From an uncultured Lachnospiraceae bacterium (GTDB lineage Bacteria; Bacillota; Clostridia; Lachnospirales; Lachnospiraceae), in NCBI GenBank assembly GCA_947591245.1, contig CANQCY010000003.1, positions 54,840-118,839 of the forward strand: a stretch of DNA of 64,000 bases, read 5' to 3'. Positions 11,408 to 37,489 of this stretch are shown in pieces (within the stretch, counting starts at the first letter, position 1; every line of letters starts with the position of its first letter). The notes under the pieces were generated by a model. The model was given only the letters and a program-made list of their open reading frames with translations. It searched no databases and had not been told where the DNA came from. Both the position numbers and the translations under genes were made by a program.

Positions 11408-11650
11408 ATGCAGTATATGAAAGAAAATCTTGCCCATCTTGTACGGGAAGCCCGCATGGGGCTTGGACTGTCCCAGGAAAAGCTGGCTGAAATCTTGGGT
11501 TTCGATTCCCGAACGATCCTCAACATTTAGGCGGGGCGTGGAAACCCGAAATTTGACAATCTCTGCTCCCTTGTCAAATACCTGAACCTGTCTGCCGACG
11601 ATATATTTTATCCGGACAGCGCAGGGGAAAAACCAAGCATACAAAAACTT
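11408..11650 (+). pseudogene. XRE-family helix-turn-helix regulator, broken by an amber stop
   Basis: GGAGG and ATG at 11408 open a Cro/C1-type frame: HLVREARMGLGLSQEKLAEI, then DSRTILNI followed by TAG at 11528. The same frame continues as AGRGNPKFDNLCSLVKYLNL, the expected second half of the HTH domain, and SADDIFYPDSAGEKPSIQKL. The family normally has Glu at the stop position (NIEAGRGNPKF), so one G-to-T change explains the break. After about 11645 the sequence becomes an unrelated permease fragment on the other strand. Such regulators are common in Clostridia mobile elements. Confidence 0.75.
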
Positions 11651-14964: not shown

Positions 14965-17352
14965 TCAGCCTTTATTATCCACCGCTGCTGTTTCCGTATT
15001 CGGAGATTCCTCCACCGGTTCGTCCGTACTGTTGTCCTCGCCGTCGCTTGCATCTGCCGCATTGTTGAACATGCATTCTTTATGGTCGCGGTCGCTTCCG
15101 TCCTCATTCACAATCCGGAAATATTTGTAGCACCCCTCGCCTACCGTATTATCCCTTAAATCAATAATATTTTGTTCCGTGATCTGGCTATATGAATCCG
15201 CATACCCCGCGTTTATCGCCGCCTGAATCTCTGTAGACGATTTCATGTCGATGCGGACAGCGCAGTTTCTCTTTGTTCCGCCTTTGCTGAACGTATTGCC
15301 CTTGATCGTTGGGTTGACGACGCCCTTTGCCAGTATGCATACATATTTGTATCCTTTGTTATCCTGCAAGGCCTGGATTCCGTCAAAAACATTGTCCTTA
15401 ATTACGGCGTTGCGCCAGTTCATCATCCTGACGGCAGCATTATATGTCTGATTCACCTTGCAATTCTGAATCGTCACATTTTCATGGTAAATCTGCTGAT
15501 TTGATGTGCTGACCGAATACGTATGGCTGCCTACCGCCGCCCCCATATTATTAAATGTACAGCTTTGGATATTTACCGTATCGCATGCCGTCCGGTCGTG
15601 CGCAGACCAGTCATAATTGAAACCGTTGTTGTTTGAGTCCGTCGTATCGATATTGATCGCTTCTTTGTGGCTCTTATTGTTGTAAATGCGAAAATCCGTA
15701 AACGAGCAGTTCTCAACGGTTACATTTTTAGAAGAATTCAATTCTATAAAATGGGAGCCGTATTCATTTGTAAATGCAATATTCCGTATCGTTACATTCT
15801 GGGCATGTCCCATAATAATTGCCATGGAGTTCAAAACGTTATCGCAGTCAATCGTCACATTTGCATCCCCCTGCAGCGTAACGTTCTGGGAACCGTTGTA
15901 GCCGCTGACAGAATTTTTTACCCCCTCTTTAGACGGAGGAACGATCTCAAACATCGTTTTATTGATGGCAAGCGAAGTATTCGCCGCTTTCACCTTCTGA
16001 ATCTTGACGCCGCTCTGAAAATTCACGGTTACGTTGGACGGAATGCATACTGCATGGCTCAGCTTATATGTTCCAGGCGCCACTGTGATCGTACCGCCGC
16101 CCGCATATTCAAGCTGTTCCATATACGAACGGAACACAAAATATGCCTTCGCCTGGGAACTGTTTGCCGTATAATCCGCCAGATCATTGTAATGCTCCCG
16201 GTATGGCTCTGAATCCGGCGTAATCGTAAACGTCCTGTCGGCTTTTGTCTGAAAATAAAACAGACGGACCGTAGAGTCATTCTTACACGGCACATAATAA
16301 TGCCTCAGGCTGCTGACCGTATTTGTCTTCATATCCTGCGTGCTTGCGGACGATATCGAATTATTGACGCCGGAAACGCGGGCAATATTAATCGCATAGC
16401 CGCAGTTGCTGATCTTGTTCTTCGATACGTTCGGCTCCTTAACACTGTACAATTTTACGGCAGAGGACGTGGAAGCCGCAGACTTCGTGCACTTCACGGT
16501 ATTGGATACGATCGCGGGACTGTCCCACATTTTTCCCTTCACCGCCGCCTCGCCCATATTGGTAAAGGTGTTCTTCTTGATCGATACCTTTGTCGAATAC
16601 GCTTCTTTTTTGCATTTCGTCGTAGCAATTCCATTTTCCAGCTTCGTAAATTTATTGGATGTGATCCGGACGTTCTGGCACGGGAGAGACGCCGCTGAAT
16701 TGAGCGTGATCGCCGCCTTATAACTGTCGCCCGAGCTTTCCGAGCCGTTTTTGAAATTGCAGTTTTCCACCTTGACCCGTTTGCTTCCCGAAATATTGAT
16801 ATAAGTACCGCCCTTTTTCCCTTTAAAATCCAACTTGGAAACCGTAATGTAATAATTGTGCCCCAAATCGATTCCGACGGCGCCCTTTACCTTGCCGAGG
16901 TCAATCGTTGCGTTCTTCGCGCCTTTAAACGTAACCTTTTTCGTCCCCTTATACTGCTTCGCCTTCTTGCCGCTCAGCTGAAAGAGCGTCTTCGACGGTT
17001 TCAGGGACGAGCTTCCCGTTTCATATGTCTTCTTAATTTTTGCACCGCTTTTTAACTGAATGGTCACATTTGAAGGTACTACAAGGGTAGAACACACCTT
17101 GTATGTGCCTTTTTTGAGAACAAGAGTACCTCCCCCCTGACTCTCCAGACGTTCAAGATACGATTTAATCGTATAATAATTTCTCGTCTTGCTATTGTAT
17201 GCCGGCAGCTTGCGATACTTACTGTCGCACGGCTGCGTCGATTTTGAAATCGTAAATTTGCCTGCCGCCTGAGAATCCTGTGAATTTCCGGCCATGCCGC
17301 AAACTGCTGCGCATGCAAGCAGAGCTCCGGCTGCCGCCAATGTTCTTTTCAT
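14965..17352 (-). CDS. Secreted tandem right-handed beta-helix protein
   Basis: 795 aa. Signal peptide MKRTLAAAGALLACAAVCGMAG, then two homologous halves. Each has a pectate-lyase-like entry block: first LERLESQGGGTLVLKKGTYK and VPSNVTIQLKSGAKI, second MEQLEYAGGGTITVAPGTYK and IPSNVTVNFQSGVKI. Each continues with parallel beta-helix coils (VKVENCNF and VTVENCSF). The C-terminus is an acidic low-complexity tail (DASDGEDNSTDEPVEESPN). Start chosen at the Met of the signal peptide with GTGAGG upstream, 18 codons inside the track ORF. The fold suggests a polysaccharide lyase, hydrolase or epimerase, but no catalytic set can be named. Not in an obvious operon. Confidence 0.8.
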   Translation of the reverse strand: MKRTLAAAGALLACAAVCGMAGNSQDSQAAGKFTISKSTQPCDSKYRKLPAYNSKTRNYYTIKSYLERLESQGGGTLVLKKGTYKVCSTLVVPSNVTIQLKSGAKIKKTYETGSSSLKPSKTLFQLSGKKAKQYKGTKKVTFKGAKNATIDLGKVKGAVGIDLGHNYYITVSKLDFKGKKGGTYINISGSKRVKVENCNFKNGSESSGDSYKAAITLNSAASLPCQNVRITSNKFTKLENGIATTKCKKEAYSTKVSIKKNTFTNMGEAAVKGKMWDSPAIVSNTVKCTKSAASTSSAVKLYSVKEPNVSKNKISNCGYAINIARVSGVNNSISSASTQDMKTNTVSSLRHYYVPCKNDSTVRLFYFQTKADRTFTITPDSEPYREHYNDLADYTANSSQAKAYFVFRSYMEQLEYAGGGTITVAPGTYKLSHAVCIPSNVTVNFQSGVKIQKVKAANTSLAINKTMFEIVPPSKEGVKNSVSGYNGSQNVTLQGDANVTIDCDNVLNSMAIIMGHAQNVTIRNIAFTNEYGSHFIELNSSKNVTVENCSFTDFRIYNNKSHKEAINIDTTDSNNNGFNYDWSAHDRTACDTVNIQSCTFNNMGAAVGSHTYSVSTSNQQIYHENVTIQNCKVNQTYNAAVRMMNWRNAVIKDNVFDGIQALQDNKGYKYVCILAKGVVNPTIKGNTFSKGGTKRNCAVRIDMKSSTEIQAAINAGYADSYSQITEQNIIDLRDNTVGEGCYKYFRIVNEDGSDRDHKECMFNNAADASDGEDNSTDEPVEESPNTETAAVDNKG

Positions 17353-17471
17353 ATGCAAAGCCCTCACCTTTTCTTTTTTTCTTTTATCGTTATATCGTAA
17401 AATCAAGGCAAAAGAATGACACGGCTCTTAAAATTTGGAAACAACCGCCGCTATTCCCTTCCGCCTTCCTT

Positions 17472-18061: not shown

Positions 18062-21000
18062 TTACCGATCGGATACGGGATTGTATTCCACTTCCGCTAT
18101 ATTGATGAGCGACATCTCCTCTTTTTCTACATTTTCCAGACTCGTCAGGAGCGCATTTGCCGTGTCTAACGAAGTCAGGCAGGTTACGCCGGTCTCAATC
18201 GACACGCGCCGGATCAAAAAACCGTCGTGCGAGTTCTCGCCCTGTCTGGGAATATCGATCACGAGATCAATTTCGTGCCCCAGAAGAAGATCCATAAGCG
18301 TCGGCGCCTCATTCTCAATCTTATTGATCCGGTTTACTTCCACGCCTTCTCTCGCAAGCGCCCTCTGTGTTCCGCATGTGGCGTAAATCTCATAGCCGAG
18401 CGCCAAAAACCGCTTTGCCACCGAAACAGCCGCCGGGTGTTCCTCCCGCCTGACCGTGAGTATCATCTTCCTGTGTTTCGGAAGATCAATGCCCGCACCG
18501 AGAAACGCCTTAGACAGCGCCTCGTTAAATGTGGGGGCAACGCCCAGACACTCGCCCGTCGACTTCATCTCCGGCCCTAAACTGATCTCCGCCCCCCGCA
18601 GCTTCTCAAAAGAAAATACCGGCATCTTAATCGTGATATAGTCCGCCTCTCGCGCCAGCCCCGTTCCATAGCCAAGGTCTTTCAGCTTTTCGCCTAAGAT
18701 CACCCGCGACGCCAGCTTCACAATCGGAATTCCCGTAACCTTGCTTATATACGGCACCGTGCGCGATGAACGCGGATTTACCTCAATGACATATACCTCG
18801 TTCTCATATACGATAAACTGGATATTAATGAGTCCGATCACATGCAGCGACCTCGCCAGCCTTTTTGTGTATTCTACAATTGTCTCCTGCGTTTCCGGCA
18901 AAATGCTCTGCGCCGGATAGACCGAAATGCTGTCGCCGGAATGAATGCCGGCGCGTTCAATATGCTCCATAATACCGGGTATGAGTATCTGTTCGCCGTC
19001 GCATACGGCGTCCACTTCAACCTCTTTTCCCATCAGATATTTGTCTACCAGTATTGGATGCTCCTGCACATGCCTGTTGATGATAGACATAAATTCTATG
19101 ATATCCTCATCGTGTATGGCGATCTGCATCCCCTGCCCGCCAAGTACGTAGGACGGACGCACAAGTACCGGATACCCCAGTTCATTGGCGGCCTCCAGCG
19201 CTTCCTCGGTTGTGAAGACTGTCGTTCCCTTCGGTCTGGGAATCCCGCACTCTTCCAGAATTTCATCAAATTTCTCCCTGTCCTCCGCAGCGTCTACATT
19301 CTCTGCGCTTGTACCGAAAATCGGCACATCCATGTTACGGAGCGCTTCCGTCAGCTTGATCGCCGTCTGTCCGCCAAACTGCACGACTGCACCGTCCGGT
19401 TTTTCCAAATCCACGATATTTGCTACGTCTTCCGGCGTGAGCGGCTCAAAATACAGCTTATTTGCCACATCAAAATCCGTACTCACCGTTTCCGGATTAT
19501 TATTTATGATAATGGTCTCAAACCCGCTTTTCTCTAACGACCATGCACTGTGCACCGAACAGAAATCAAACTCGATCCCTTGTCCGATCCGGATCGGGCC
19601 GGAACCCAGCACGAGCACCTTTTTCTTCGCACCCGCCCCGCAATCATTCCCTTTTGCCTCTAACGCTTCCCTCACTTCACATTCGCTGCCAAAACAGCTG
19701 TAATAATACGGCGTCGCCGCCTCAAACTCCGCCGCGCATGTATCCACCATCTTGAATGCCGCCGTGACGCCGTTTGCAAGACGCATTTCGCGAACCTCGC
19801 CCTCTGTGATTCCGGCATATCCGGCGATTACCCGATCCGGAAACTCGATGCGTTTTGCCTCGGCGAGAAGTTCCGGCGTGAGCGGTTCGGATTTCAGGCG
19901 CTGCTCCATCTCTACGAGAATGGAGATTTTATCAATAAACCAGTAGTCGATCTGCGTTATTTCATGAATCTCTTCATACGACGCTCCCTTCCTCAAAAGC
20001 TCGGCAATGATGAAAATGCGCCGGTCATCTACGATCCGGACGCGTTCCAAAAGCTGCTCTTTCGAGCGGTCCGCGTATCGGCCAATATCCAGACTGTCTA
20101 TGTGCTGCTCCAGCGAGCGGAGCGCTTTCATGAGCGCGCCTTCAAAATTCGTGCAAATGCTCATAACCTCTCCGGTCGCTTTCATCTGCGTCGTCAGTGT
20201 TCTCTTTGCCTTGATAAATTTATCAAACGGAAGCCTCGGTATTTTTACAACGCAGTAATCAAGCGCCGGTTCAAAGCTGGCGTACGTCTTTCCGGTGACC
20301 GCATTCGGTATCTCATCCAGCATGTAGCCGAGAGCAATCTTCGCCGCAACCTTCGCGATCGGATATCCCGTCGCCTTTGACGCCAGCGCCGATGAACGGC
20401 TCACCCTCGGATTGACCTCGATTACACAGTATTCAAAAGACTCCGGATGAAGGGCAAACTGTACGTTGCATCCGCCCGTAATGCCCAATTCAGTAATAAT
20501 ATTAAGCGCAGAGGAGCGAAGCATCTGGTACTCCTTGTCCGAGAGCGTCTGAGACGGGGCGACGACGATGCTGTCGCCGGTGTGCACGCCGACCGGATCC
20601 AGATTTTCCATATTGCAGACCGTGATGCAGTTGCCGCCCGCATCGCGCATGACCTCGTACTCGATTTCCTTCCATCCGGCGATACACCGCTCGATCAGGC
20701 ACTGCCCGACGCGCGAGAGGCGGAGCCCGTTTGCGCAGATCTCCCGCAGCTCCTCTTCACTGCCGGCGATACCGCCGCCGCTTCCTCCCAGCGTATAGGC
20801 GGGACGGATCACGACCGGATAGCCGATCGTATTCGCAAAATCCACCGCTCCTTCCACGGTATCCACGACTTCGCTGGCGGCGATCGGCTCCCCGATCTTC
20901 TCCATCGTGGTTTTAAATTCCAACCGGTCCTCCGCTTTCTTAATCGTCATAGAAGTCGTGCCGATCAGACGCACTCCCTGCTCCCTCAAAAATCCGCACT

Positions 21001-21310
21001 CCTCCAATTCCATTGCGATATTTAACGCCGCCTGTCCGCCGAGCGTCGGAAGAATACTGTCCGGCCTCTCCTTTTTCAGCAGATGCTTCACGACGTCGAC
21101 AGTGAGAGGCTCTATGTATACTTTGTCCGCAATATCTTTATCTGTCATGATCGTGGCCGGGTTGGAGTTGATGAGAACGACCTCAATTCCCTCTTCTTTC
21201 AGCGAACGGCATGCCTGTGTTCCCGCATAATCAAATTCCGCCGCCTGTCCGATCACGATCGGTCCTGAACCAATGACCAATACCTTCTTTATTTCTTTTA
21301 TTTTTGGCAT
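18062..21310 (-). CDS. carB: Carbamoyl-phosphate synthase, large subunit
   Basis: 1082 aa, full length. Two homologous ATP-grasp halves: KVLVIGSGPIVIGQAAEFDY opens the first and KVLVLGSGPIRIGQGIEFDF the second, with RPAYTLGGSGGG and RPSYVLGGQGMQ loops, and a C-terminal MGS-like allosteric domain (about 935-1082). It makes carbamoyl phosphate from bicarbonate, ATP and ammonia passed on from CarA, feeding arginine and pyrimidine synthesis. GGAGG precedes the ATG and carA ends 13 bp upstream. It is the last gene of the gltB operon, so carbamoyl phosphate synthesis is tied to nitrogen assimilation here. Confidence 0.98.
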   Translation of the reverse strand: MPKIKEIKKVLVIGSGPIVIGQAAEFDYAGTQACRSLKEEGIEVVLINSNPATIMTDKDIADKVYIEPLTVDVVKHLLKKERPDSILPTLGGQAALNIAMELEECGFLREQGVRLIGTTSMTIKKAEDRLEFKTTMEKIGEPIAASEVVDTVEGAVDFANTIGYPVVIRPAYTLGGSGGGIAGSEEELREICANGLRLSRVGQCLIERCIAGWKEIEYEVMRDAGGNCITVCNMENLDPVGVHTGDSIVVAPSQTLSDKEYQMLRSSALNIITELGITGGCNVQFALHPESFEYCVIEVNPRVSRSSALASKATGYPIAKVAAKIALGYMLDEIPNAVTGKTYASFEPALDYCVVKIPRLPFDKFIKAKRTLTTQMKATGEVMSICTNFEGALMKALRSLEQHIDSLDIGRYADRSKEQLLERVRIVDDRRIFIIAELLRKGASYEEIHEITQIDYWFIDKISILVEMEQRLKSEPLTPELLAEAKRIEFPDRVIAGYAGITEGEVREMRLANGVTAAFKMVDTCAAEFEAATPYYYSCFGSECEVREALEAKGNDCGAGAKKKVLVLGSGPIRIGQGIEFDFCSVHSAWSLEKSGFETIIINNNPETVSTDFDVANKLYFEPLTPEDVANIVDLEKPDGAVVQFGGQTAIKLTEALRNMDVPIFGTSAENVDAAEDREKFDEILEECGIPRPKGTTVFTTEEALEAANELGYPVLVRPSYVLGGQGMQIAIHDEDIIEFMSIINRHVQEHPILVDKYLMGKEVEVDAVCDGEQILIPGIMEHIERAGIHSGDSISVYPAQSILPETQETIVEYTKRLARSLHVIGLINIQFIVYENEVYVIEVNPRSSRTVPYISKVTGIPIVKLASRVILGEKLKDLGYGTGLAREADYITIKMPVFSFEKLRGAEISLGPEMKSTGECLGVAPTFNEALSKAFLGAGIDLPKHRKMILTVRREEHPAAVSVAKRFLALGYEIYATCGTQRALAREGVEVNRINKIENEAPTLMDLLLGHEIDLVIDIPRQGENSHDGFLIRRVSIETGVTCLTSLDTANALLTSLENVEKEEMSLINIAEVEYNPVSDR

Positions 21311-21323
21311 ATCGTTTCCTCCG

Positions 21324-22421
21324 TTATCTCTCCATCATTTTCATAAACCGGTCAAACAAAATTTCGGAATCTCTCGGCCCGGCGCATGCTTCCGGATGAA
21401 ACTGCACTGTAAAGACAGGCTTATCCTTATACCGCAGCCCCTCGACCGTCCCATCGTTCACGTTAATAAATGCGATTTCCGCCACGCCTTCCGGAATCGA
21501 ATCCGCTCTGACAACGTACCCGTGGTTTTGCGACGAAATATAAACCTTTCCTGTTTTCACATCCTTTACCGGATGGTTCGCGCCGCGGTGTCCGTACTTC
21601 ATCTTTTCCGTGTCCGCCCCATTTGCCAGCGCCATCAGCTGGTGTCCGAGGCAGATCGCAAAGATCGGCACGCCGGAGGCATACAGCCTCTTTATATTGC
21701 CTATCGTTTCCCCGCAGTCTTTCGGGTCTCCTGGTCCGTTTGTGATCATGATGCCGTCCGGATCGGCAGAAAGAATCTCCTCCGCTTTCGTGCGCGCCGG
21801 ATAAACCGTGACCTCGCACCCCCTGTTTAGCAGGCATCGCACAATATTATATTTTGTTCCAACGTCAAGAATAGCAACCCTTTCCGTCACCGGAATGCTG
21901 CTATCCGTATCAAAATCTCCCGGCCGGAATGAAACCGCCTGTTTTGCCGTCACTTTATCGACAACGCCGGAAACCCTATATTTTTTTAATTTCTCCATCA
22001 CGGAATCTAAATCAAAAGCCCCGTCCCTCGTAATCATGCCGTTCATCGTTCCTTTTTCCCGCAGCCGCTTCGTAAGGGCCCGGGTATCGATGCCCGCAAT
22101 GCCCGGAATATCCTGTTCGGCGAGAAACTCCTGAATACTCTGTTCCTTCCGGAAATTGCTCCCCAAACGGGATAATTCGCGGACGATAAAACCGTCCACG
22201 CTCGCTTTTTTTGATTCCAAATCCTTTGTACAGATACCGTAATTGCCGATCAGGGGATATGTCATCGCCACTGCCTGTCCCGCATAACTCGGATCAGTCA
22301 GCACCTCCGGATACCCCGTCATAGAAGTATTAAATACAATCTCGCTTATGACCTCTCTTTCGCTTCCGATACCCGTCCCGGTAAACACCGTTCCGTCCTC
22401 CAGAATTAAATAGGCTTTCAT
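21324..22421 (-). CDS. carA: Carbamoyl-phosphate synthase, small (glutaminase) subunit
   Basis: 365 aa. The N-terminal CPSase domain (MKAYLILEDGTVFTGTGIGS) is followed by a class I glutamine amidotransferase with nucleophile Cys in IFAICLGHQLMALA and catalytic His/Glu in VQFHPEACAGP. It releases ammonia from glutamine for CarB. It starts about 20 bp after the ANTAR gene and couples to carB, so it belongs to the nitrogen operon. Confidence 0.98.
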   Translation of the reverse strand: MKAYLILEDGTVFTGTGIGSEREVISEIVFNTSMTGYPEVLTDPSYAGQAVAMTYPLIGNYGICTKDLESKKASVDGFIVRELSRLGSNFRKEQSIQEFLAEQDIPGIAGIDTRALTKRLREKGTMNGMITRDGAFDLDSVMEKLKKYRVSGVVDKVTAKQAVSFRPGDFDTDSSIPVTERVAILDVGTKYNIVRCLLNRGCEVTVYPARTKAEEILSADPDGIMITNGPGDPKDCGETIGNIKRLYASGVPIFAICLGHQLMALANGADTEKMKYGHRGANHPVKDVKTGKVYISSQNHGYVVRADSIPEGVAEIAFINVNDGTVEGLRYKDKPVFTVQFHPEACAGPRDSEILFDRFMKMMER

Positions 22422-22442: not shown

Positions 22443-22985
22443 TCATTCAAATGCCAAAATCATTTCCGCCGTTTCCACCAGATTATTCCCGCTGTCCATA
22501 CTGAGCTTCTGTATATATTTGTGCGCTTCTTCTTCCGTCATCGAATTTCGTTCGATCAGAAGCGCCTTTGCCGAATTGATAATCTGCCGTTCTTCTTCCG
22601 TCCGTTTTTTCGGCAGACTCTTTTTCCTTCGTTTAAGCTCCTTCTGAATATCCATCGTCATCATGAAAACGGTACTGATAAATTCCTGCGTGCGAAACGG
22701 CATCGCAAGGCAGACGATCTCATGACTGCAGCAGTCCGCGAGCTTCGGCGGGCTCGCCACCAAAAGCATAGAAAATTCTCTGGGCAGATATCCAAAAAGC
22801 TCACTGTAGTGCATATCCGTCAGCCGGTAGCCGCACACGACGATTCCTCCGTCAGACTCGTTCGCCCCCCGGATCACCTGATATGCGCTATTACATGTTA
22901 GTATATCATCAAAACCATTACGGTTCAAAACAATTTTTAAATTCTTTGCATCCTCCAGTTTCAGAAATGCAACAATGATACGCAT
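22443..22985 (-). CDS. ANTAR-domain RNA-binding antiterminator with pseudo-receiver
   Basis: 180 aa. Residues 1-110 have a receiver-like fold, but the phospho-acceptor strand reads IVVCGYRLTDMH with no Asp at the usual place, and the usual KP motif is CLAMPF. A helical linker (KELKRRKKSLPKKRTEEER) leads to a C-terminal ANTAR domain: QIINSAKALLIERNSMTEEE and AHKYIQKLSMDSGNNLVETA. ANTAR proteins bind paired small hairpins in leader RNA and prevent intrinsic termination, often for nitrogen genes. Without a phosphorylation site it resembles AmiR and NasT, which are controlled by a partner protein. AAAGGAGG precedes the ATG. It sits between the glnA-like gene and carA in one operon. Confidence 0.92.
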   Translation of the reverse strand: MRIIVAFLKLEDAKNLKIVLNRNGFDDILTCNSAYQVIRGANESDGGIVVCGYRLTDMHYSELFGYLPREFSMLLVASPPKLADCCSHEIVCLAMPFRTQEFISTVFMMTMDIQKELKRRKKSLPKKRTEEERQIINSAKALLIERNSMTEEEAHKYIQKLSMDSGNNLVETAEMILAFE

Positions 22986-23038: not shown

Positions 23039-24352
23039 TCAAACGCGATCCAGATACTTTTCGACCTCCCATGCCGTGACCTGGCGAGAAAACTCCTCCC
23101 ATTCTTCTTCTTTTTCGTTGATGATAATATGCGAAAGCGTTTCGCCGAATACCTCTTTTAAAAACGCGTCCTGTTCAAACGCGCGGACTGCCTCATGCAG
23201 GTTGCGGGGAAGTATATCGAATTTGACGTCCGGATCCCCCGCCGCCGCCTCCATGCTCACCGGCAGCTCGATTTCTTTTTTCAGCCCTTCCAGTCCCGCC
23301 GCCAGACACCCGGCAAGTACAAGATACGGATTGCTCGCTCCGTCCGGACTGCGCAAAACGATGCGGGAACCGGTCGCGCCAACGTCCGTGATGCGTATGA
23401 GGGGCGCGCGGCTCGTCCGAGACCATGTGATATCCACCGGCGCATTGTAGCCCGGCACCAGTCGTTTATATGAATTTACAATCGGATTGTTGATGAGCGT
23501 AAGTCCTTTGATATGCTTCATAATGCCGCCCATGAAATGATACGCCTCCCGGCTCATGCCGTGCGTTGCCTGCTCATCACTGAAAATATTTTTGCCGTTC
23601 CGACACAAAAACATATTTAAAATCATGCCGGAACCCTTGATCCCGTATTTCGGTTTCGGCATGAAGGTAGCGTGAAGTCCGTGGCGCCTCGCCACCGTCC
23701 GGACCGTCAGCTTAAATGTCATAATATTATCCGCCGTACTGAGCGCCTCGTCATACATGAAGTTAATGCAGTGCTGCGCTACCTCCTTAGAATGATAGGA
23801 GCTTTCCATGACAAATCCCATCTCTTCCAACGACAGTACCATATCGCGTCTCGCATTTTCGCCGGAATCAAGCGGGCCGATATCAAAAAAACCGCCCTTC
23901 TCGCCCGTCTCTGTCGTCGGCTGCCCGTCTTCGTCCGTATCAAAAAGGAAAAACTGGTTCTCCGGTCCCACATGAAATGTATAGCCCTGCTGCTCGGCCT
24001 CGGCGAGAACCTTCTTCAAAATATACCGCGAATCCGCCTCATACGGCGTTCCATCCGGATTCCACACATCGCATATAAAACGCGCCACCTTTCCCCGCTG
24101 CGGACGCCACGGGAAAATAGTAAACGTATCGAGATCCGGCGCCAGAATAAATTCGGATAAATCATTTGTTGCATATCCCTGAATCGCAGCGCCGTCAAAC
24201 ACGCACTCATTGTTTAAAATCCTGTCAAGATGATCGCTCGTCATCGCCACATTTTTCAATGCGCCAAAACTGTCAGCAAACTGAAGACGGATAAAGCCGA
24301 CGTCTTCCTCTTTTACTAAACGGACAATATCCTCTCTCGTGTACTTCGCCAT
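23039..24352 (-). CDS. Glutamine synthetase-like protein lacking catalytic metal ligands (pseudo-GS)
   Basis: 437 aa, the GSI length, and collinear with Bacillus GlnA from MAKYTREDIVRLVKEEDVGF to the C-terminus (HGLHATFMPKP and NSYKRLVPGY retained). By manual comparison the active-site residues are changed: GPEPEFFLF is GPENQFFLF; EASHHEVAPGQHEIDF is ESSYHSKEVAQHCINF, losing two Glu; GSGMHCN is GSGMILN, losing the metal/ATP His; the flap GYEAP is GYNAP; RVEVRS is RIVLRS; and SSIEG is AAIQG. Only Glu of GPE and several Arg remain. Ammonia-ligase activity is therefore unlikely. The gene is intact. Position between gltD and an ANTAR regulator suggests a glutamine or nitrogen sensor, which is inference. 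The ATG with AGGAG eight bases upstream is preferred to the track start. Confidence 0.88.
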   Translation of the reverse strand: MAKYTREDIVRLVKEEDVGFIRLQFADSFGALKNVAMTSDHLDRILNNECVFDGAAIQGYATNDLSEFILAPDLDTFTIFPWRPQRGKVARFICDVWNPDGTPYEADSRYILKKVLAEAEQQGYTFHVGPENQFFLFDTDEDGQPTTETGEKGGFFDIGPLDSGENARRDMVLSLEEMGFVMESSYHSKEVAQHCINFMYDEALSTADNIMTFKLTVRTVARRHGLHATFMPKPKYGIKGSGMILNMFLCRNGKNIFSDEQATHGMSREAYHFMGGIMKHIKGLTLINNPIVNSYKRLVPGYNAPVDITWSRTSRAPLIRITDVGATGSRIVLRSPDGASNPYLVLAGCLAAGLEGLKKEIELPVSMEAAAGDPDVKFDILPRNLHEAVRAFEQDAFLKEVFGETLSHIIINEKEEEWEEFSRQVTAWEVEKYLDRV

Positions 24353-24384: not shown

Positions 24385-25866
24385 CTAATTCAGATTTGAA
24401 TATCCCATCAGATCCCTGTCCACTTCTTTCGCCGCCTCCCTGCCCTCGCGGATCGCCCAGACGACAAGCGACTGTCCGCGGTGCATATCGCCCGCAGTAA
24501 ATACGCGGTCGACGCTTGTTTTGTACCCGCCCGGCTTTGTAAGCACATTTGTCCGGTTGTCAAGCTCCAGTTCAAAATCTTTTGCGACATACTCCTGCGT
24601 TCCGAGAAATCCCGCTGCAATAAATACGAGATCCGCATCGATCAGGTACTCGCTTCCCGGCGCTTCGCTCATCGCCATTCGTCCGGTCTCCTCATCCTTC
24701 TCCCATGCCAGCTTCACCGCTTTTACTTTCGTAAGCTTTCCCTTTTCGTCCTTAATAAATTCCTTCACTGTCGTCTCATAAATGCGCGGATCGCTGCCAA
24801 ATACCGCGATCGCCTCCTGCTGGCCATAATCGGTCTTTAACACCTTGGGCCACTCTGGCCACGGATTGTTGTCTGCCCGTTCTTCGGGCGGTTTCGGCAT
24901 CATCTCGAGCTGTACGACGCTTTTCGCCCCCTGCCGGATCGAAGAACCAACGCAGTCGTTTCCGGTATCGCCGCCCCCGATCACGAGAACGTTTTTGCCC
25001 TTTGCGTCAATATAATCTTTATAGTCCGGATCCATCACGTGTTTTGTCACGCGCGTCAGATAATCCACGGCGAAATATATCCCGTCCGCATCCCTGCCCG
25101 GCGCCTTGATATCACGCGGATTGGAGGAGCCGCAGGTGAGAACAATCCGGTCAAACTGCTGCAAAAGCTCCCCTGCTTTTATGTCAGCGCCGACATTCAC
25201 GCCCGTCTTAAATACGATCCCCTCTTCGGTAAGTATTTTTATCTTTCTCTCAACCACGGATTTTTCCAGTTTCATATTCGGAATGCCGTACATCAAAAGC
25301 CCGCCCGCACGATCCGAACGCTCAAAAACCGTAACGCTGTGGCCGCGCTTGTTTAACTGGTCTGCCGCCGCCAGCCCGGATGGGCCGGAACCCACGACCG
25401 CCACCTTTTTGCCGGTGCGCACTTTCGGCGGTCTCGCCTCCATAAGTCCGTTTTCATAACCAAATTCAATAATCGCATTTTCATTTTCCTTAATCGTCAC
25501 CGCTTCATCATTAAGTCCGCACGTACATGCCGCCTCGCACGGCGCCGGACATACTCTTGACGTAAACTCCGGGAAATTATTCGTTTTGAGAAGCCGCCCA
25601 AGCGCCTCCGCATAATTGTCAAGGTAAATGAGATCGTTCCACTCGGGGCACATATTATTTAACGGACACCCGGACGCCATACCCCCGATCATCATACCGG
25701 ACTGGCAAAATGGCACGCCGCAGTCCATACATCTCGCCGCCTGGCGCTTTCGGTCTTTTTCCGGCATCGGAACATGGAATTCATCAAAATTCTTAATCCT
25801 CTCCAATGGTGCGATCTCCGTATTTACATTACGTTCATATTCTAAAAATCCGGTCGGTTTTCCCAT
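24385..25866 (-). CDS. gltD: Glutamate synthase, small subunit
   Basis: 493 aa. The N-terminal ferredoxin-like cysteine region (CMDCGVPFCQSG, CPLNNMCPEW, CPAPCEAACTCGL) binds two 4Fe-4S clusters; then an FAD site (VAVVGSGPSGLAAADQL) and an NAD(P)H site (VLVIGGGDTGNDC). It passes electrons from NAD(P)H to GltB for reductive conversion of glutamine and 2-oxoglutarate into two glutamates. It follows gltB by 49 bp and precedes the glnA-like gene by 32 bp in the same operon. Confidence 0.98.
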   Translation of the reverse strand: MGKPTGFLEYERNVNTEIAPLERIKNFDEFHVPMPEKDRKRQAARCMDCGVPFCQSGMMIGGMASGCPLNNMCPEWNDLIYLDNYAEALGRLLKTNNFPEFTSRVCPAPCEAACTCGLNDEAVTIKENENAIIEFGYENGLMEARPPKVRTGKKVAVVGSGPSGLAAADQLNKRGHSVTVFERSDRAGGLLMYGIPNMKLEKSVVERKIKILTEEGIVFKTGVNVGADIKAGELLQQFDRIVLTCGSSNPRDIKAPGRDADGIYFAVDYLTRVTKHVMDPDYKDYIDAKGKNVLVIGGGDTGNDCVGSSIRQGAKSVVQLEMMPKPPEERADNNPWPEWPKVLKTDYGQQEAIAVFGSDPRIYETTVKEFIKDEKGKLTKVKAVKLAWEKDEETGRMAMSEAPGSEYLIDADLVFIAAGFLGTQEYVAKDFELELDNRTNVLTKPGGYKTSVDRVFTAGDMHRGQSLVVWAIREGREAAKEVDRDLMGYSNLN

Positions 25867-25915: not shown

Positions 25916-28900
25916 TTACGAAATCTGTTTCTGCGTCTCATAAAATGCCTCGATCAACGCCTGCTCATTGCTCAGCCCCTTCTCTTCCATAGCTGCAATC
26001 TTCTGCATCATGTTCTGGTAATCGTGAGGGATGATCTTCTTGAATTTGGGAAGATAATCCTTAAAGTTTTCAAGAATCTCCTTTCCCTTGTTCGATCCCG
26101 TCGCCTCTACATGAGCGCGGATCATATCCTTCAGCTGCATGACGTCATATTTATTCGTCACGGCTTCTGACGAGACGAGCTCTTTATTCAACTTAAGGTA
26201 AAGATTGCGGTCCTCGTCGAGCACATAGGCGATACCGCCGCTCATGCCCGCCGCGAAATTCTTGCCCGTATAACCGAGCACGACAACGCAGCCGCCGGTC
26301 ATATATTCACAGCCATGTTCGCCGACGCCCTCGACAACGGCATTTACGCCGGAATTCCTGACACAGAAACGCTCGCCCGCAACGCCGCTTATATACGCCG
26401 TTCCGCTTGTCGCACCGTAAAGAGCCACATTGCCGACGACAATATTTTCATCCGAGCGGTATTTCGCATCCTTAGGCGGGTATACAATGAGCTTTCCGCC
26501 CGACAGCCCCTTTCCGAAGTAATCGTTGCTGTCGCCCTCCAATTCGAGCGTGAGCCCTTTCGGAATAAAGGCCCCAAAGCTCTGTCCGCCGCTGCCGGTG
26601 CACTTAACGGTAAACGTATCGTCTTCCAGATCATCTCCCAGGCGCTTCGTGATCTCTGACCCCAAAATCGTTCCCAAAGACCGGTCCGTATTTGTAACCT
26701 TCGCTGAAATCGTCTTCTTTTCTCCGGTTTCTAAGCTCTCGCCGAATTTTTTCAAAAAGACCTTCTCGTCAATCGTTTTATTTAACTTAAAGTCATACCT
26801 ATCCTTGGCGTTAAACTTATTCTTCTTTTCATGAATAAACGGATTGTTGATAATCGCCGACAGATCAAGCTTGCCTGCCCGCTCACTGTCGATATTATCC
26901 TTCACCTTCAAAAGATCCGAGCGCCCGATCAGTTCATCCAGCGTACTCGCGCCGAATTTCGCCATCAGCTCGCGCACCTCTTCGGCGACAAAGCGCATGA
27001 AGTTCTCGACATACTCCGGTTTTCCCTTGAAGCGTTTGCGAAGCTCCGGATTTTGTGTAGCAACGCCGACGGGACACGTATCCAGATTGCATACGCGCAT
27101 CATCACGCAGCCCATCGTCACGAGAGGCGCTGTAGCAAACCCAAACTCCTCCGCGCCAAGGAGCGCCGCGATCATGACGTCGCGTCCGTTCATCAGCTTG
27201 CCATCCGTCTCAATAACCACCTTAGAACGCAGCCCGTTCATCAGGAGCGTCTGGTGCGTCTCTGCAAGTCCGAGTTCCCATGGAAGCCCGGCATTGTGGA
27301 TCGAGCTGCCCGGAGCCGCTCCTGTCCCGCCGTCATAACCGGAAATCAGCACGACTCCCGCACCCGCTTTCGCTACGCCTGCCGCTACTGTGCCAACGCC
27401 CGCTTCCGAAACGAGCTTGACGGAAATGCGCGCATCTTTATTTGAATTTTTCAAGTCGTAAATAAGCTGTGCAAGATCTTCTATCGAATAAATATCGTGA
27501 TGCGGCGGAGGGGAAATCAGCGATACGCCCGGTGTGGAATGCCTTGTTTTGGCAATCCACGGATATACCTTCTTTCCGGGCAGATGGCCGCCCTCGCCTG
27601 GTTTCGCCCCCTGAGCCATCTTAATCTGAATCTCTTTGGCACTCACAAGGTATCTGGACGTCACGCCGAACCGTCCCGACGCCACCTGTTTGATCGCCGA
27701 GCAGCGGTTTAATCCGTCTTCGCCGATCTCAAGCCTCTCAAGGCTCTCGCCGCCCTCTCCGCTGTTTGACTTTCCGTGAAGGCGGTTCATTGCAATCGCC
27801 AGCGTCTCATGCGCCTCCTGCGAAATTGACCCGTAGGACATGGCTCCCGTCTTAAACCGTTTCACAATCTCATCCACGCTCTCTACTTTTGAAAGCGGAA
27901 TACCCTTCTTCGGGAAATTAAAATCAAGCAGGCTTCTCAAGTTCACGTAAAGGTTCTCACGGTTAATTTCACTTGAATACTCCTTGAACATCTTATAGTC
28001 TCCGGTTCTTGCAGACTCCTGAAGAAGATGAATCGTCTTCGGATTGTACAGATGCTCTTCTTTTCCGCTCCTGCTCTTGTGGTTTCCGATACTATCTAAC
28101 GTAATGTCCGTTCCGAGTTCAAGCGGATCGAACGCCTTGTCATGAAGCATTTCAACCTGTGCCTGAATATCCTCAATATCCAGTCCGCCGATACGCGAAA
28201 CCGTACCGGTAAAGTAATTCTCAATAAACGCTGCGGACAGCCCGATCGCCTCAAATATTTTGGCGCCCTGATAAGACTGTATCGTCGAAATGCCCATCTT
28301 AGAGGCAATTTTTACGATTCCATGAAGAACCGCAGAATTGTAATCATCCACTGCCACATAATAATCCTTATCCAGCATGCCGCCCTCGATCAGACCGTGA
28401 ATCGTATCCAGCGCGAGGTACGGGTTGACTGCCGTTGCGCCGAAACCGAGCAGAGTCGCAAAATGATGCACTTCCCTCGGCTCCGCGCTCTCCAAAATCA
28501 TGGACAGGGAGGTGCGTTTTTTCGTCGTAATAAGATGGTGCTGCATCGCCGATACCGCCAGAAGCGCCGGAATCGCCACATGGTTTTCATCCACGCCCCG
28601 GTCAGACAAAATTAGAATATTCGCCCCGTCTTTATAGGCGCGGTCAGCTTCCAGATACAGCCGGTCGATCGCCTTTTTCAGCGATGTATTTTTGTAATAG
28701 GTAATCGGAATCACCGCTACCTTAAAGCCCTTTACGTTCATGGACTTTATTTTCAAAAGATCGGTATTTGTCAGAATCGGATTATCAATCTTCAACGAAT
28801 GGCAGTTCTCCGCCGTTTCCTCCAGTAAGTTGCCGGAATCCCCGATATAGACCGTAGTGGACGTGACAACCTCTTCGCGTATGGCGTCAATCGGGGGATT

Positions 28901-30478
28901 CGTCACCTGCGCAAACCGTTGTTTAAAATAATTGTACAACGGCTGCGGCTGGCTGCTCAGCGCTGCAAGGGGCGTGTCGTGCCCCATCGCGGCGATCGGT
29001 TCGCTGCCGTTTTGCGCCATGGGAAGAATCGAGTTTCTCACTTCTTCATACGTATAACCAAACGCCTTCTGAAGGCGAAGGCTCTCGTCATGGTCATAGG
29101 AGTCGATGCGTTTATTAGGAATCGTCAGATCCCTTAAATTGACAAGATTTGTATCCAGCCATTCACCGTACGGCTGCCTGGATGCATATGCCTCTTTCAG
29201 TTCATCATCATCGATAAGCTCTCCCTTTACCGTATCCACCAGAAGCATCTTTCCCGGGCGAAGCCTGTCCTTTTTCACGACATGGCTGTCGCTGATCGGC
29301 ATAACGCCTACCTCGGACGAAAGAATGAGCTGGTCATCATCCGTGATATAGTATCTGGATGGGCGAAGTCCGTTGCGGTCGAGCACCGCCCCCATGATAT
29401 CCCCGTCAGAAAACAGAATGGACGCCGGGCCGTCCCAAGGCTCCATCATCGTCGCATAATATTGATAAAAATCTTTTTTCCTGTCGCTTATATACCGGTT
29501 ATTTGCCCACGGTTCCGGAATCGTGATCATCACGGCAAGCGGAAGATCCATTCCGCTCATTACGAGAAATTCCAGCGTATTGTCAAGCATCGCCGAGTCC
29601 GACCCCTCGGTATTGACAACCGGAAGCACCTTGTGCAGCTCCCCGCTCAGATGGCTGGACTCCATTGTCTCCTCGCGCGCAAGCATCTTATCCGCATTAC
29701 CGCGTATCGTATTGATCTCGCCATTGTGGACGATCAGGCGGTTCGGATGGGCGCGCTGCCAGCTCGGCTGCGTATTCGTGCTGAAACGGGAATGGACAAC
29801 GGCGATCGCCGACTCATAATCGACGTCCTGAAGATCATCAAAGAACAGCCGCAGCTGGGAAACGAGAAACATTCCCTTGTAGACGATCGTACGGCTGGAA
29901 AGGGAGACGACGTATGTATTTTCATTGGACTGTTCAAAGACGCGGCGGGCAATATAAAGCCTGCGGTCAAACGCCAGCCCTTTTTCCACATCAGACGGTT
30001 TTCGGATAAAGCACTGCATGATATACGGCATGCACTCGACGGCCGCCTTTCCCAGTATGCCCGGTGCGATCGGCACCTCGCGCCAGCCGAGGAACTCCAG
30101 CCCCTCCTTATCGACGATCGTCTCAAACATCTTCTTCGCCTGATTCCGCTTTAATTCGTCCTGTGGGAAAAAGAACATGCCGATGCCGTATTCCCTCTCC
30201 CCGCCGAGATCAATCCCCATTTTCGCCGCCACTTTGCCAAAAAATTTATGGGAGATCTGAAGCAGAATGCCGACGCCGTCTCCGGTCTTCCCCTCGCCGT
30301 CCTTGCCGGCGCGGTGCTCCAAATGCGCCACGATTTCAAGCGCATTTTTCACGGTATCATGAGTCTTCCTCCCCTTTATATTTACGATTGCCCCGATTCC
30401 GCAATTGTCATGTTCAAAATCGGGATTATACATTCCTATCGCTTTTCGCTTTGCCTCTTCTGCATAGTTGCCACTCAT
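25916..30478 (-). CDS. gltB: Glutamate synthase, large subunit
   Basis: 1520 aa, full length. The class II glutamine amidotransferase begins at Cys26 (HDNCGIGAIV) after a short propeptide; central domain; FMN-binding synthase domain with PGEGGHLPGKK and the 3Fe-4S cysteines in CVMMRVCNLDTCPVG; and a C-terminal GXGXG beta-helix (FCVRNSGVNAVVEGVGEHGCEYMTGG). The chosen ATG has GGAGG six bases upstream, 11 codons inside the track ORF. It is the first gene of the nitrogen operon, behind a promoter and a leader with an intrinsic terminator. Confidence 0.98.
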   Translation of the reverse strand: MSGNYAEEAKRKAIGMYNPDFEHDNCGIGAIVNIKGRKTHDTVKNALEIVAHLEHRAGKDGEGKTGDGVGILLQISHKFFGKVAAKMGIDLGGEREYGIGMFFFPQDELKRNQAKKMFETIVDKEGLEFLGWREVPIAPGILGKAAVECMPYIMQCFIRKPSDVEKGLAFDRRLYIARRVFEQSNENTYVVSLSSRTIVYKGMFLVSQLRLFFDDLQDVDYESAIAVVHSRFSTNTQPSWQRAHPNRLIVHNGEINTIRGNADKMLAREETMESSHLSGELHKVLPVVNTEGSDSAMLDNTLEFLVMSGMDLPLAVMITIPEPWANNRYISDRKKDFYQYYATMMEPWDGPASILFSDGDIMGAVLDRNGLRPSRYYITDDDQLILSSEVGVMPISDSHVVKKDRLRPGKMLLVDTVKGELIDDDELKEAYASRQPYGEWLDTNLVNLRDLTIPNKRIDSYDHDESLRLQKAFGYTYEEVRNSILPMAQNGSEPIAAMGHDTPLAALSSQPQPLYNYFKQRFAQVTNPPIDAIREEVVTSTTVYIGDSGNLLEETAENCHSLKIDNPILTNTDLLKIKSMNVKGFKVAVIPITYYKNTSLKKAIDRLYLEADRAYKDGANILILSDRGVDENHVAIPALLAVSAMQHHLITTKKRTSLSMILESAEPREVHHFATLLGFGATAVNPYLALDTIHGLIEGGMLDKDYYVAVDDYNSAVLHGIVKIASKMGISTIQSYQGAKIFEAIGLSAAFIENYFTGTVSRIGGLDIEDIQAQVEMLHDKAFDPLELGTDITLDSIGNHKSRSGKEEHLYNPKTIHLLQESARTGDYKMFKEYSSEINRENLYVNLRSLLDFNFPKKGIPLSKVESVDEIVKRFKTGAMSYGSISQEAHETLAIAMNRLHGKSNSGEGGESLERLEIGEDGLNRCSAIKQVASGRFGVTSRYLVSAKEIQIKMAQGAKPGEGGHLPGKKVYPWIAKTRHSTPGVSLISPPPHHDIYSIEDLAQLIYDLKNSNKDARISVKLVSEAGVGTVAAGVAKAGAGVVLISGYDGGTGAAPGSSIHNAGLPWELGLAETHQTLLMNGLRSKVVIETDGKLMNGRDVMIAALLGAEEFGFATAPLVTMGCVMMRVCNLDTCPVGVATQNPELRKRFKGKPEYVENFMRFVAEEVRELMAKFGASTLDELIGRSDLLKVKDNIDSERAGKLDLSAIINNPFIHEKKNKFNAKDRYDFKLNKTIDEKVFLKKFGESLETGEKKTISAKVTNTDRSLGTILGSEITKRLGDDLEDDTFTVKCTGSGGQSFGAFIPKGLTLELEGDSNDYFGKGLSGGKLIVYPPKDAKYRSDENIVVGNVALYGATSGTAYISGVAGERFCVRNSGVNAVVEGVGEHGCEYMTGGCVVVLGYTGKNFAAGMSGGIAYVLDEDRNLYLKLNKELVSSEAVTNKYDVMQLKDMIRAHVEATGSNKGKEILENFKDYLPKFKKIIPHDYQNMMQKIAAMEEKGLSNEQALIEAFYETQKQIS

Positions 30479-30557
30479 ACAAATCCTCCATTCCTGCGCG
30501 GGATCGCACATACTATCATTTTAGAAGCCAAAATGGCTTCGCCGTGGGAGATTCCCT

Positions 30558-30611
30558 AAAAAAAGATGTCAGAAAAAACACCCTGCGCGGCATTTCTCTT
30601 CTGACATCTTT
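30558..30611 (-). terminator. Intrinsic terminator in the gltB leader (attenuator)
   Basis: On the RNA strand AAAGATGTCAGAA pairs with TTCTGACATCTTT (13 bp) around a 24-nt loop, followed by a T7 run. It lies between the promoter and gltB, so most transcripts would stop here unless antitermination occurs. Inside the loop, AATGCC and GGTGTT can form a separate small hairpin with a 6-nt loop. Confidence 0.8.
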
Positions 30612-30616
30612 GTCTG
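30601..30616 (-). promoter_or_regulatory. Small hairpin with AAAGAT hexaloop, candidate ANTAR site
   Basis: CAGACAAAGATGTCAG folds as GAC/GTC (plus an outer C-G) around AAAGAT, which has A at loop position 1 and G at 4, as described for ANTAR target hairpins. Its 3' arm is part of the terminator's 5' arm, so the two exclude one another. The stem is short and the second hairpin's loop (GCGCAG) does not fit the rule. Confidence 0.45.
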
Positions 30617-30622
30617 AAAAAC

Positions 30623-30651
30623 ATTATATAACACAATTTCAAAATACGCAA
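30623..30651 (-). promoter_or_regulatory. gltB operon promoter
   Basis: TTGCGT, 17-nt spacer, TATAAT. The predicted start falls at or just before the hexaloop hairpin, so the leader is about 140 nt to gltB. Confidence 0.75.
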
Positions 30652-32002: not shown

Positions 32003-33877
32003 TTATTCGCCAAGTTCAAGCGTTCCGAACGTGTCATTAAGATTCCAGTAGCTTAACGCAACATCCGTCTTTCTGAGATAGATTTCTGCAGCCCTCTTAT
32101 CTCCCGTGCAATCTTGGACAATGATGTCAAATCCCACACGGTCTCCGGCCTTCTTGGCAGCCTTGAAAGGAATCTTAAACTCTACAACATATCCATCGCC
32201 AGTGATTGAATATGCCGTCTCAATTCCTGCATAATCAGCCTTTGCATCGGCGCTTCCGCCTTTAATTTCATCCGTCAGGGCAGCCTTCACTCCATCGCCG
32301 TCCTTTTCAAGCCCCGTCACCCTATACTGGAATGCATCCTTGTTAGCTTCAAAAGTTTTGTCCATGCTGTAATCCTCATCGAGGAAGAATTCAACGCCGT
32401 CTCTTTCATGATCCAGTGTTGAGCCAAGGGAAACATTAGGATCGGTAACCCTGACAAGTCCGTAAAGGTTATTCTCATCCCATGCAATCTTCGCAGCTGC
32501 CGTGGAAGCCGTCTCTACCTCTGCACCGCAAAGCACTACGTTTTCGATCGCAAGCTCCGGAACATCCTTCCATGCATCATCATTTCCGTCACCGTCTACC
32601 GCTATGGAAGCGCCGGAAGCTATTTTTGCAGCCGTAAAGTCCGGTGCAGGCTTATCGTCAGGATTCGGGCTCGGCGATTCATCAGGATTCGGGCTCGGCG
32701 ATTCGTCAGGATCCGGGCTCGGCGATTCGTCAGGATCCGGGCTCGGCGACGCCGTAAGCTTGTCATAGGCGTCCTTATCCTTATATGCCTTTATTGACGT
32801 AACCGTAATAGGTCCCGCCTTGGTACTGGAAGCGTCGCCCAGGCTGTAGATCTCGAAAGCGGCAACATTTACGCGGTTATCCTTCTCAAGATTGAACTTA
32901 ATCGGGAAGTACATGTTGTCCTGTGTTTCTATTTCAAGAAGCCCGCCGTGGGACGCATGGTCAAGAGCATCGAGGAACTGGGCGCTGAGGTCATGCCCCT
33001 TTTTCTTATCAGGGTTGCCTTCTACAGCTTCAAGCTTAACGCCTTCCTGATTCACGCCCTCTACTACGACATAGGTGTATTTTTCAAGATTCAGAGGCTT
33101 CCTTACCCCTCTCGTTACCTGTTCGCCATTCTCATCCGTTACCGTTTCCTTTTTGTCCCCGTCAACAAAATACCATCTTGCGCCTTTATAGGATGTTCCG
33201 GTAAAATCTAACGTTACAGAGCCGTCTTCATTATCTGTTTTCTTAACTCCCTCAGCTATGTCAAGTTCGCTGATCGCCATTACATCCAAAACCTCATCCT
33301 TAGGCTCCTCTGCCTTTGGCTTTTCAGTCGGGGTAGGTTTCGGCGTCGAAGGCTTCTTTGTAGGTTTGCTGGTCGGCTCCGACGTCGCCGGCTGATTCGT
33401 CACATCAGGAACTGATGTAACATCAGACCCCGGCGCCGATGTCGCATCGGAACCCGGCGTCGCCGTTACAGCTGGCGTCGCCGTTACAACCGGCGGCTGC
33501 GTTGCAGCTGTCGACGTCGGATTCTTGCTTTTTACATTAACCGTAACCTTTGCCTTAGCCTTCTTGTTTGACTTTGATGTTACGGTAATGATAGCTTTAC
33601 CGACCTTCTTGCCTTTGACAACGCCTTTCTTTGATACAGATGCAATCTTTTTGTCGCTCGACTTATACTTAACTGCCTTGCTTGCTTTCTTAGGCGTAAC
33701 CTTCTTTACCTTTAGCGTAATCTTTTTGCCAACTGTTATGCTGACTTTCTTTTTGTTCATTGTAATCTTCTTAGCCTTTACTGCAGCCTGCGCATCGTTT
33801 CCGCCGCAGCAAACGCTCGTTACAACGAGTGCAGCCGCAAGCGTTAAGCTTGCAGCCTTTTTCATGTTAGGTTTCAT
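32003..33877 (-). CDS. Secreted Ig-like (Big_2) and CBM9-type carbohydrate-binding protein
   Basis: 624 aa. Signal peptide (MKKAASLTLAAALVVTSVCC...AQA), a very Lys-rich Big_2-like domain (about 33-118; KVSITVGKKITLKVKKVTPK), a Thr/Pro linker, an all-beta domain (about 205-370), a four-unit SPSPDPDE repeat, and a C-terminal CBM9-like domain (SIAVDGDGNDDAWKDVPELA; DENNLYGLVRVTD). No catalytic domain is visible, so it likely binds plant or host glycan at the cell surface. The cysteine pair CCGG near the signal end is not a clear lipobox. A three-nucleotide-codon mini-frame ATG-AAA-TGA overlaps the start. The gene lies alone between inverted repeats. Confidence 0.8.
   Translation of the reverse strand: MKPNMKKAASLTLAAALVVTSVCCGGNDAQAAVKAKKITMNKKKVSITVGKKITLKVKKVTPKKASKAVKYKSSDKKIASVSKKGVVKGKKVGKAIITVTSKSNKKAKAKVTVNVKSKNPTSTAATQPPVVTATPAVTATPGSDATSAPGSDVTSVPDVTNQPATSEPTSKPTKKPSTPKPTPTEKPKAEEPKDEVLDVMAISELDIAEGVKKTDNEDGSVTLDFTGTSYKGARWYFVDGDKKETVTDENGEQVTRGVRKPLNLEKYTYVVVEGVNQEGVKLEAVEGNPDKKKGHDLSAQFLDALDHASHGGLLEIETQDNMYFPIKFNLEKDNRVNVAAFEIYSLGDASSTKAGPITVTSIKAYKDKDAYDKLTASPSPDPDESPSPDPDESPSPNPDESPSPNPDDKPAPDFTAAKIASGASIAVDGDGNDDAWKDVPELAIENVVLCGAEVETASTAAAKIAWDENNLYGLVRVTDPNVSLGSTLDHERDGVEFFLDEDYSMDKTFEANKDAFQYRVTGLEKDGDGVKAALTDEIKGGSADAKADYAGIETAYSITGDGYVVEFKIPFKAAKKAGDRVGFDIIVQDCTGDKRAAEIYLRKTDVALSYWNLNDTFGTLELGE
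32657..32750 (-). repeat. Four tandem 24-bp units coding for SPSPDPDE/SPSPNPDE
   Basis: Units of 24 bp differ by one or two bases (GGATCCGGG versus GGATTCGGG); each adds eight residues to the linker between two domains. Copy-number change would stay in frame. Confidence 0.85.
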
Positions 33878-33911
33878 TTCATTGATCCTCCTTTTTTAGT
33901 ACCGCCTTGCA

Positions 33912-33952
33912 CTAAAACCAGCACTTTACAGCATTTATAAATGAATTCCCCG
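33912..33952 (-). repeat. Right copy of the inverted repeat, in the leader of the CBM9 gene
   Basis: This is the reverse complement of 31941-31981 with a perfect 20-nt core. It lies 35 nt upstream of the CBM9 start codon, just outside a 7-bp hairpin (TTTTAGT/ACTAAAA) that adjoins the ribosome site. Confidence 0.8.
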
Positions 33953-33995
33953 CTGCGCATAACTCTTTAAGAAAGAATAAGATATATATCTTATT

Positions 33996-37475: not shown

Positions 37476-37489
37476 CATTTTCCTCCTTA

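Follow-up and report, generated by a model that had tools for sequence, protein, structure and literature searches.

ANTAR control of GS/GOGAT clusters in Clostridium, ANTAR proteins controlled by a partner and binding of a regulator (TnrA) by glutamine synthetase (GS) are already known. NitR of Clostridium saccharobutylicum goes with GS/GOGAT genes according to a secondary citation (Stutz 2007, as cited in PMC6316151), and in C. thermocellum the ANTAR protein Clo1313_2030 is found with GS and GOGAT genes (PMC4676874). We found no statement that GS senses for NitR. ANTAR proteins with an AmiR-like pseudo-receiver are assigned in the literature to a class whose members are controlled through direct contact with another protein that binds the signal (PMC7496416; PMC3369936), and for AmiC-AmiR of P. 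aeruginosa and NasS-NasT of Paracoccus a ligand-binding partner is encoded beside the ANTAR protein (PMC5424462, PMC3795266).

Nitrogen control in Lachnospiraceae, which are abundant gut anaerobes, is poorly known. Here, we analysed a stretch of 64,000 nucleotides from an uncultured Lachnospiraceae bacterium (the window), in which a GS-like protein is encoded directly upstream of an ANTAR protein. The loss of its metal site, together with its strict preservation beside an RNA-binding regulator, suggests an enzyme that has turned into a nitrogen sensor controlling transcription.

Results

The GS-like gene is located on the minus strand (23039..24352) and encodes a pseudo-glutamine synthetase (pseudo-GS) of 437 amino acids with a GSI-alpha fold, as judged from Pfam, PDB alignment and an AlphaFold2 model. 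Its start ATG is at 24352 and its stop at 23039, and a second in-frame ATG is present at 24358. The Pfam domains Gln-synt_N (PF03951) and Gln-synt_C (PF00120) span the entire protein, and it aligns with B. subtilis GlnA (4s0r/4lnf) without shift (E about 1e-141). The pseudo-GS has both domains of a type I-alpha GS, and the collinearity over the full length that the sequence-only reading had described is confirmed. The structure model (pLDDT 87) superimposes on GSI structures with TM values of 0.93-0.94, and the closest solved structures belong to the B. subtilis GS-TnrA/GS-GlnR set (4s0r, 7tfa and relatives). The NCBIfam GlnA equivalog model gave 409.7 bits, which is below its cut-off of 429.15.

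The protein does not carry the six n1/n2 metal ligands and the flap glutamate of a type I-alpha GS. Five of the six ligands are lost (B. subtilis numbering throughout): the glutamate of GPExEFFLF is replaced by glutamine (E134Q), two glutamates are gone from the HHEVAPGQHE block (E189S, E196C), the histidine of GSGMH is an isoleucine (H245I) and the glutamate of RVEVR a valine (E333V). In addition, the flap glutamate of GYEAP is an asparagine (E304N). All of these exchanges had been read from the letters and were confirmed by the alignment. The glutamate of SSIEG is indeed replaced by glutamine, but this change carries no weight since orthologues with an intact site vary at this position (E, D, K). 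The statement that nearly all catalytic acids were replaced holds for five ligands and the flap; E132 is the sole metal ligand that remains in the window protein, and E134 is retained in 13 of 23 orthologues of the genus. Displacement of the catalytic residues into another register was checked and ruled out, as the alignment is ungapped across all motifs. R62 is replaced by threonine (R62T), whereas R298, R316, R321, R331 and R335 are all present. In GS, these five arginines contact the substrate and the phosphate of the nucleotide, and R62 and E304 contribute to the glutamine feedback of the B. subtilis enzyme. These exchanges lead us to infer that the pseudo-GS has lost glutamine-synthesis activity.

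Of the 39 genomes of the genus, 24 encode the pseudo-GS (identity 66-81%). One of these 24 members is cut by a contig end and residue counts were therefore made on the 23 complete proteins. In all of them, residue 189 is S or A, residue 304 is N and residue 333 is V, I or A, and both the glutamate of position 196 and the histidine of position 245 are absent. New residues have been fixed across these copies as well (E191, Y187, T62), and E191, N304 and Y187 are each present in 23/23. The identity of residues 196 (C, H, Q, Y) and 245 (F, M, I, S) varies. R298, R316 and R321 are kept in every complete copy and R335 in 22 of the 23. When close copies were compared pairwise, the median dN/dS was 0.044 (range 0.021-0.09), and the value for the neighbouring ANTAR gene was higher (0.119). 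No internal stop was seen among the 24 members, including the one that is cut. Thus, the protein is under strong purifying selection although it lacks the metal sites of GS, and the earlier suggestion of a selective rather than a general loss is borne out. The expectation that orthologues share the substitutions held for the genus (E189, E196, H245, E304 and E333 in the 23 complete proteins), but most other family orthologues keep every metal ligand. Four genus members without pseudo-GS (G299, G307, G317, G324) carry a different and shorter GS subfamily of 395-430 amino acids (L067-L070), in which E132 is replaced by K or M and the flap is altered; here, carB is located upstream and an ANTAR gene downstream.

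To describe the family, we catalogued 191 GS loci of Lachnospiraceae. No metal ligand was lost at 136 loci, one was lost at 16, two at 7, three at 3, four at 19 and five at 10. Since most family orthologues have a full metal site, the ligand loss is lineage-specific within the family. A GS tree built without the catalytic columns contained a clade without any intact member (22 rows, 11 genera, SH-aLRT 98), in which the flap glutamate is changed in 22/22 and E189 in 21/22. Losses of at least three ligands were also seen elsewhere on the tree (L071/L077, L246, L097), and at least six changes are required, three of which are forced by well-supported branches. Because this is a quick tree with some long branches, the exact number of independent losses is uncertain. 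Among other Clostridia sampled at class level, all 29 GS loci keep the metal ligands and an ANTAR neighbour was present at 18 of them. ANTAR pairing with both intact and dead GS, together with the intact class-level loci, indicates that the pairing likely predates the loss: an active GS would have been paired with ANTAR first, and catalysis would have been lost later within Lachnospiraceae. A search of genome contigs with the pseudo-GS protein alone returned only 10 loci, 5 of which were distant alphaproteobacterial GS-like proteins. The pseudo-GS is the dead end of a GS-ANTAR pair that is widespread in Lachnospiraceae and other Clostridia, where the active site of the GS is usually intact.

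The adjacent gene (22443..22985, minus strand) encodes an ANTAR antiterminator of 180 amino acids with a pseudo-receiver domain, identified by Pfam, alignment of the partners and a structure model. The ANTAR domain is located at the C-terminus (PF03861, 59 bits at a cut-off of 27.3) and its conserved residues recur across the partners. At the position of the phospho-acceptor aspartate, directly after strand 47-51 of the model, the protein has Gly52, and the acidic pair and the lysine of receivers are also absent. Among 186 ANTAR partners the phospho-acceptor aspartate is absent in 185 and present in one. The closest folds to the model (pLDDT 90.6) were EutV and Rv1626, and AmiR was among the matches. 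A C-terminal ANTAR domain behind a receiver fold without phospho-acceptor aspartate is the AmiR-type architecture. The ANTAR gene lies directly downstream of the GS gene on the same strand at 185/185 assessable loci of this GS lineage, with intact and dead GS alike; assessable means that the downstream side was readable, and two further exceptions are contig ends. At loci of a different GSI lineage of the same family, an ANTAR neighbour was seen in 0/4 cases. This pattern makes GS the only constant candidate for a partner of the ANTAR protein.

In the window, the genes are ordered gltB-gltD-pseudoGS-ANTAR-carA-carB, all on the minus strand. gltB (glutamate synthase large subunit, 25916..30511) was assigned from its open reading frame and sequence, with the same gene order in relatives, and its likely start is the ATG at 30478 behind GGAGG. 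gltD (small subunit, 24385..25866) matched TIGR01317 with 693.7 bits. carA (carbamoyl-phosphate synthase small subunit, 21324..22421) matched NF009475 with 534.7 bits within the same-strand gene run, and carB (large subunit, 18062..21310) is an open reading frame that follows carA in relatives as well. Retention of the protein inside a nitrogen operon, as noted from the sequence alone, is therefore correct for this locus. However, unlike the ANTAR linkage, linkage to gltBD and carAB is limited to some lineages. In G309, carA is split into two open reading frames (L114, oriented 10405-11512), through a sequencing error or because the gene itself is broken. Further out on the minus strand (14965-17406 and 32003-37478), the window encodes large secreted-looking proteins, among them repeat-rich proteins, proteins with Ig-like domains and a large putative glycosidase.

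Upstream of gltB, we found a -10 element (TATAAT, 30623..30628, minus strand) immediately followed by a putative ANTAR target hairpin, UUUUCAGAC[AAAGAU]GUCAGAAGA (30597..30620, minus strand), which is assigned from its sequence, its conservation in the genus and covariation in its stem. The hexaloop AAAGAU (30611-30606) has A at position 1 and G at position 4, is closed by GAC/GUC and starts 11 nt after TATAAT. This A1/G4 loop rule is that of ANTAR target RNAs (PMC3369931, PMC8934654). An intrinsic terminator (30558..30611, minus strand; fold z-score -5.0) uses the 3' half of the hexaloop hairpin as its 5' arm, so that the two structures are mutually exclusive. The gltB leader thus combines an A1/G4 hexaloop with an overlapping terminator, as ANTAR target RNAs do. 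All 17 leaders of the genus that were readable at gltB carry such a hairpin with a competing terminator. Across the family, hairpin and terminator were detected in 72 of 180 leaders; the reverse strand gave 7 such cases and a set of 360 shuffles gave 2. The hexaloop motif with a T-run was missing from 113 of the 180. A sigma70-like site is present upstream in 64 of 67 hexaloop leaders of the family. Since the motif search fixed stem pairs 1 and 2, these pairs were excluded as evidence. Among 63 distinct sequences, 95% can form pair 3 and 70% pair 4, and both values are above those of all 2000 shuffles. For pairs 5 to 8, pairing was not above chance, and covariation past pair 4 was not significant in these 63 sequences. 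In family leaders, the hexaloop most often starts 10 nt past the -10 box. At this distance, there is no room for another hairpin in front of it, which points to a single-hexaloop design. By eye, we saw no second hexaloop downstream of the first, and the leader does not have the two hexaloops of dual-hexaloop targets. An Rfam scan of the leader gave no family above gathering threshold and the best matches were chance hits to microRNA models. Few loci of the short GS subfamily, and few of the remaining lineages with eroded sites, have the element.

In the genome from which the window derives, the same hexaloop-terminator element precedes a gene (L151:1591-3360, C14) for an ammonium transporter with a C-terminal PII domain (Amt-PII fusion). 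Among the matches inspected in the genus, those that have a terminator at a gene start precede gltB, amt or an aminotransferase-like gene. The latter (L301, G318:C127), identified by eye, is a possible member of the regulon. Genus matches of the pattern without terminator were judged to be chance, and when the pattern was reversed as a control, the number of matches fell to roughly one third. A third match in the window's own genome (C27:16371), behind a pilin-type gene and before a folE-like gene, is doubtful and was excluded from the regulon. In some other Clostridia (L306-L309, L313), PII and Amt genes directly follow GS-ANTAR.

The genome also encodes a type III GS that is intact and in which no motif is missing (3o6x, E 6e-199), and a GSIII-type match was obtained in 24/24 genomes with pseudo-GS and in ten further genera of the clade. 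A second active GSI was not found in this genome, which is 85% complete; only GSIII was present. Judged by its motifs, this enzyme is able to supply glutamine, and its presence allows the GSI copy to lose catalysis.

Discussion

We consider it probable that the pseudo-GS is a catalytically dead GS fold, which has been kept as signal-sensing partner of the adjacent ANTAR antiterminator. The sequence-only reading had assigned no role to the protein; its gene neighbourhood, the pseudo-receiver of the ANTAR protein and the leader RNA point to regulation. According to this proposal, the former substrate pocket of the pseudo-GS would bind a nitrogen metabolite, which may be glutamine, glutamate or a nucleotide. 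Depending on the ligand state, the pseudo-GS would either hold the pseudo-receiver ANTAR protein or release it. The freed ANTAR protein would then bind the hexaloop hairpin with which the gltB transcript begins and block the overlapping terminator, so that gltBD-pseudoGS-ANTAR-carAB, and elsewhere the Amt-PII gene, would be transcribed. Glutamine would come from the separate type III GS. Physical binding of the two proteins, identity of the ligand and direction of control are parts of the model that we infer. The retained substrate arginines argue for an amino acid or a nucleotide as ligand, and with R62 and E304 lost, the Bacillus-type glutamine-feedback signal may not apply. Further points speak against this reading: adjacency alone could reflect co-regulation, the leader has one hexaloop instead of the two of the studied ANTAR antiterminators, and the hexaloop was not found before many loci of the family.

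The pseudo-GS might act on metabolism instead, as allosteric or scaffold subunit for GOGAT, carbamoyl-phosphate synthetase or GSIII, and its adjacency to ANTAR would then mean co-regulation. Its GSI subunit fold is retained and the genes that surround it in the genus (gltB, gltD, carA, carB) all encode glutamine-using proteins, but these linkages occur in some lineages only, whereas ANTAR is there at every assessable locus, and we consider such a role unlikely. It is quite unlikely, in our judgement, that the protein has become an enzyme with changed chemistry, for instance a ligase with other metal ligands or another substrate, in which E191, N304, Y187 and S189 form a new site. The invariance of the first three of these residues in the genus and the retained arginines would suit such an enzyme, and GSI relatives with other substrates do exist, namely the gamma-glutamylpolyamine synthetases (PMC5403932). 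However, residues 196, 245 and 333 vary in a way that does not resemble a new metal site. Moreover, the altered-substrate GS-like enzymes known so far retain, to our knowledge, the metal acids.

The ANTAR protein could also be driven by another input such as PII, with GS as a mere target or an ancestral passenger. The PII domain fused to the Amt of the candidate regulon and the Amt and PII genes next to GS-ANTAR in some Clostridia are consistent with this idea. Nevertheless, we rate it very unlikely, since no PII or Amt gene was seen within the wide loci of the own genus while GS is always there, and a dead GS would have no reason for such conservation. That the pseudo-GS is a neutrally decaying remnant, retained by operon linkage alone, is hardly credible. 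The loss of the catalytic residues, and the type III GS as a second GS that can replace the function, would fit such decay, but the dN/dS of the pseudo-GS is lower than that of the ANTAR gene and none of the 24 sequences from the genus, of which one is truncated at a contig end, has an internal stop. Pseudogene decay was rejected on the dN/dS values.

To a wider claim we give an even chance: a whole Lachnospiraceae clade has turned GS into a dedicated metabolite sensor for ANTAR, with living intermediates of the erosion and with an antiterminator of a single hexaloop, so far undescribed, at the start of nitrogen-gene transcripts, and active GS already senses in most Lachnospiraceae and many Clostridia. 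If this is true, GS-ANTAR is the nitrogen sensor-effector of Lachnospiraceae and many other Clostridia, and the dead GS separates sensing from catalysis by natural mutation, which makes it a clean tool for GS signalling without synthesis. The active sites at successive stages of erosion are a rare natural record of the way from enzyme to regulator. For this clade, the annotation as glutamine synthetase is misleading, as it is for metabolic models based on it.

Comparison with known systems

A search of mainly open-access literature retrieved no GS with ANTAR in Lachnospiraceae and no bacterial pseudo-GS sensor; within the same scope, we found no description of a GS/GOGAT cluster whose GS is dead, of GS as ANTAR partner or of a single-hexaloop leader. 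The NitR and Clo1313_2030 clusters resemble our locus in that an ANTAR antiterminator is situated amid GS/GOGAT genes and, according to these sources, induces nitrogen assimilation genes on nitrogen limitation. There, the GS is described as the enzyme and we found no dead GS, which distinguishes the clusters from the window. AmiR has a pseudo-receiver, as the ANTAR protein of the window does, and is released by ligand. However, AmiC and NasS have binding-protein-like folds, whereas the candidate partner described here has the fold of a glutamine synthetase.

The B. subtilis GS-TnrA and GS-GlnR systems, in which a GSI-alpha oligomer binds a regulator and thereby controls transcription, provide a precedent for our proposal. 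There, the GS is an active enzyme and the regulator a MerR-type DNA binder; here, the candidate partner is an RNA-binding ANTAR protein. Lengsin (LGSN, 2j9i) shares with the pseudo-GS a glutamine synthetase fold lacking GS catalysis, but it is a vertebrate lens protein and a distant relative (E 8e-15). For the RNA, the closest parallel is the EutV target, in which an A1/G4 hexaloop overlaps an intrinsic terminator in the same way as in the gltB leader (PMC3369931, PMC8934654). The EutV target comprises two hexaloop hairpins, whereas the gltB leader has a single one, right where the transcript starts.
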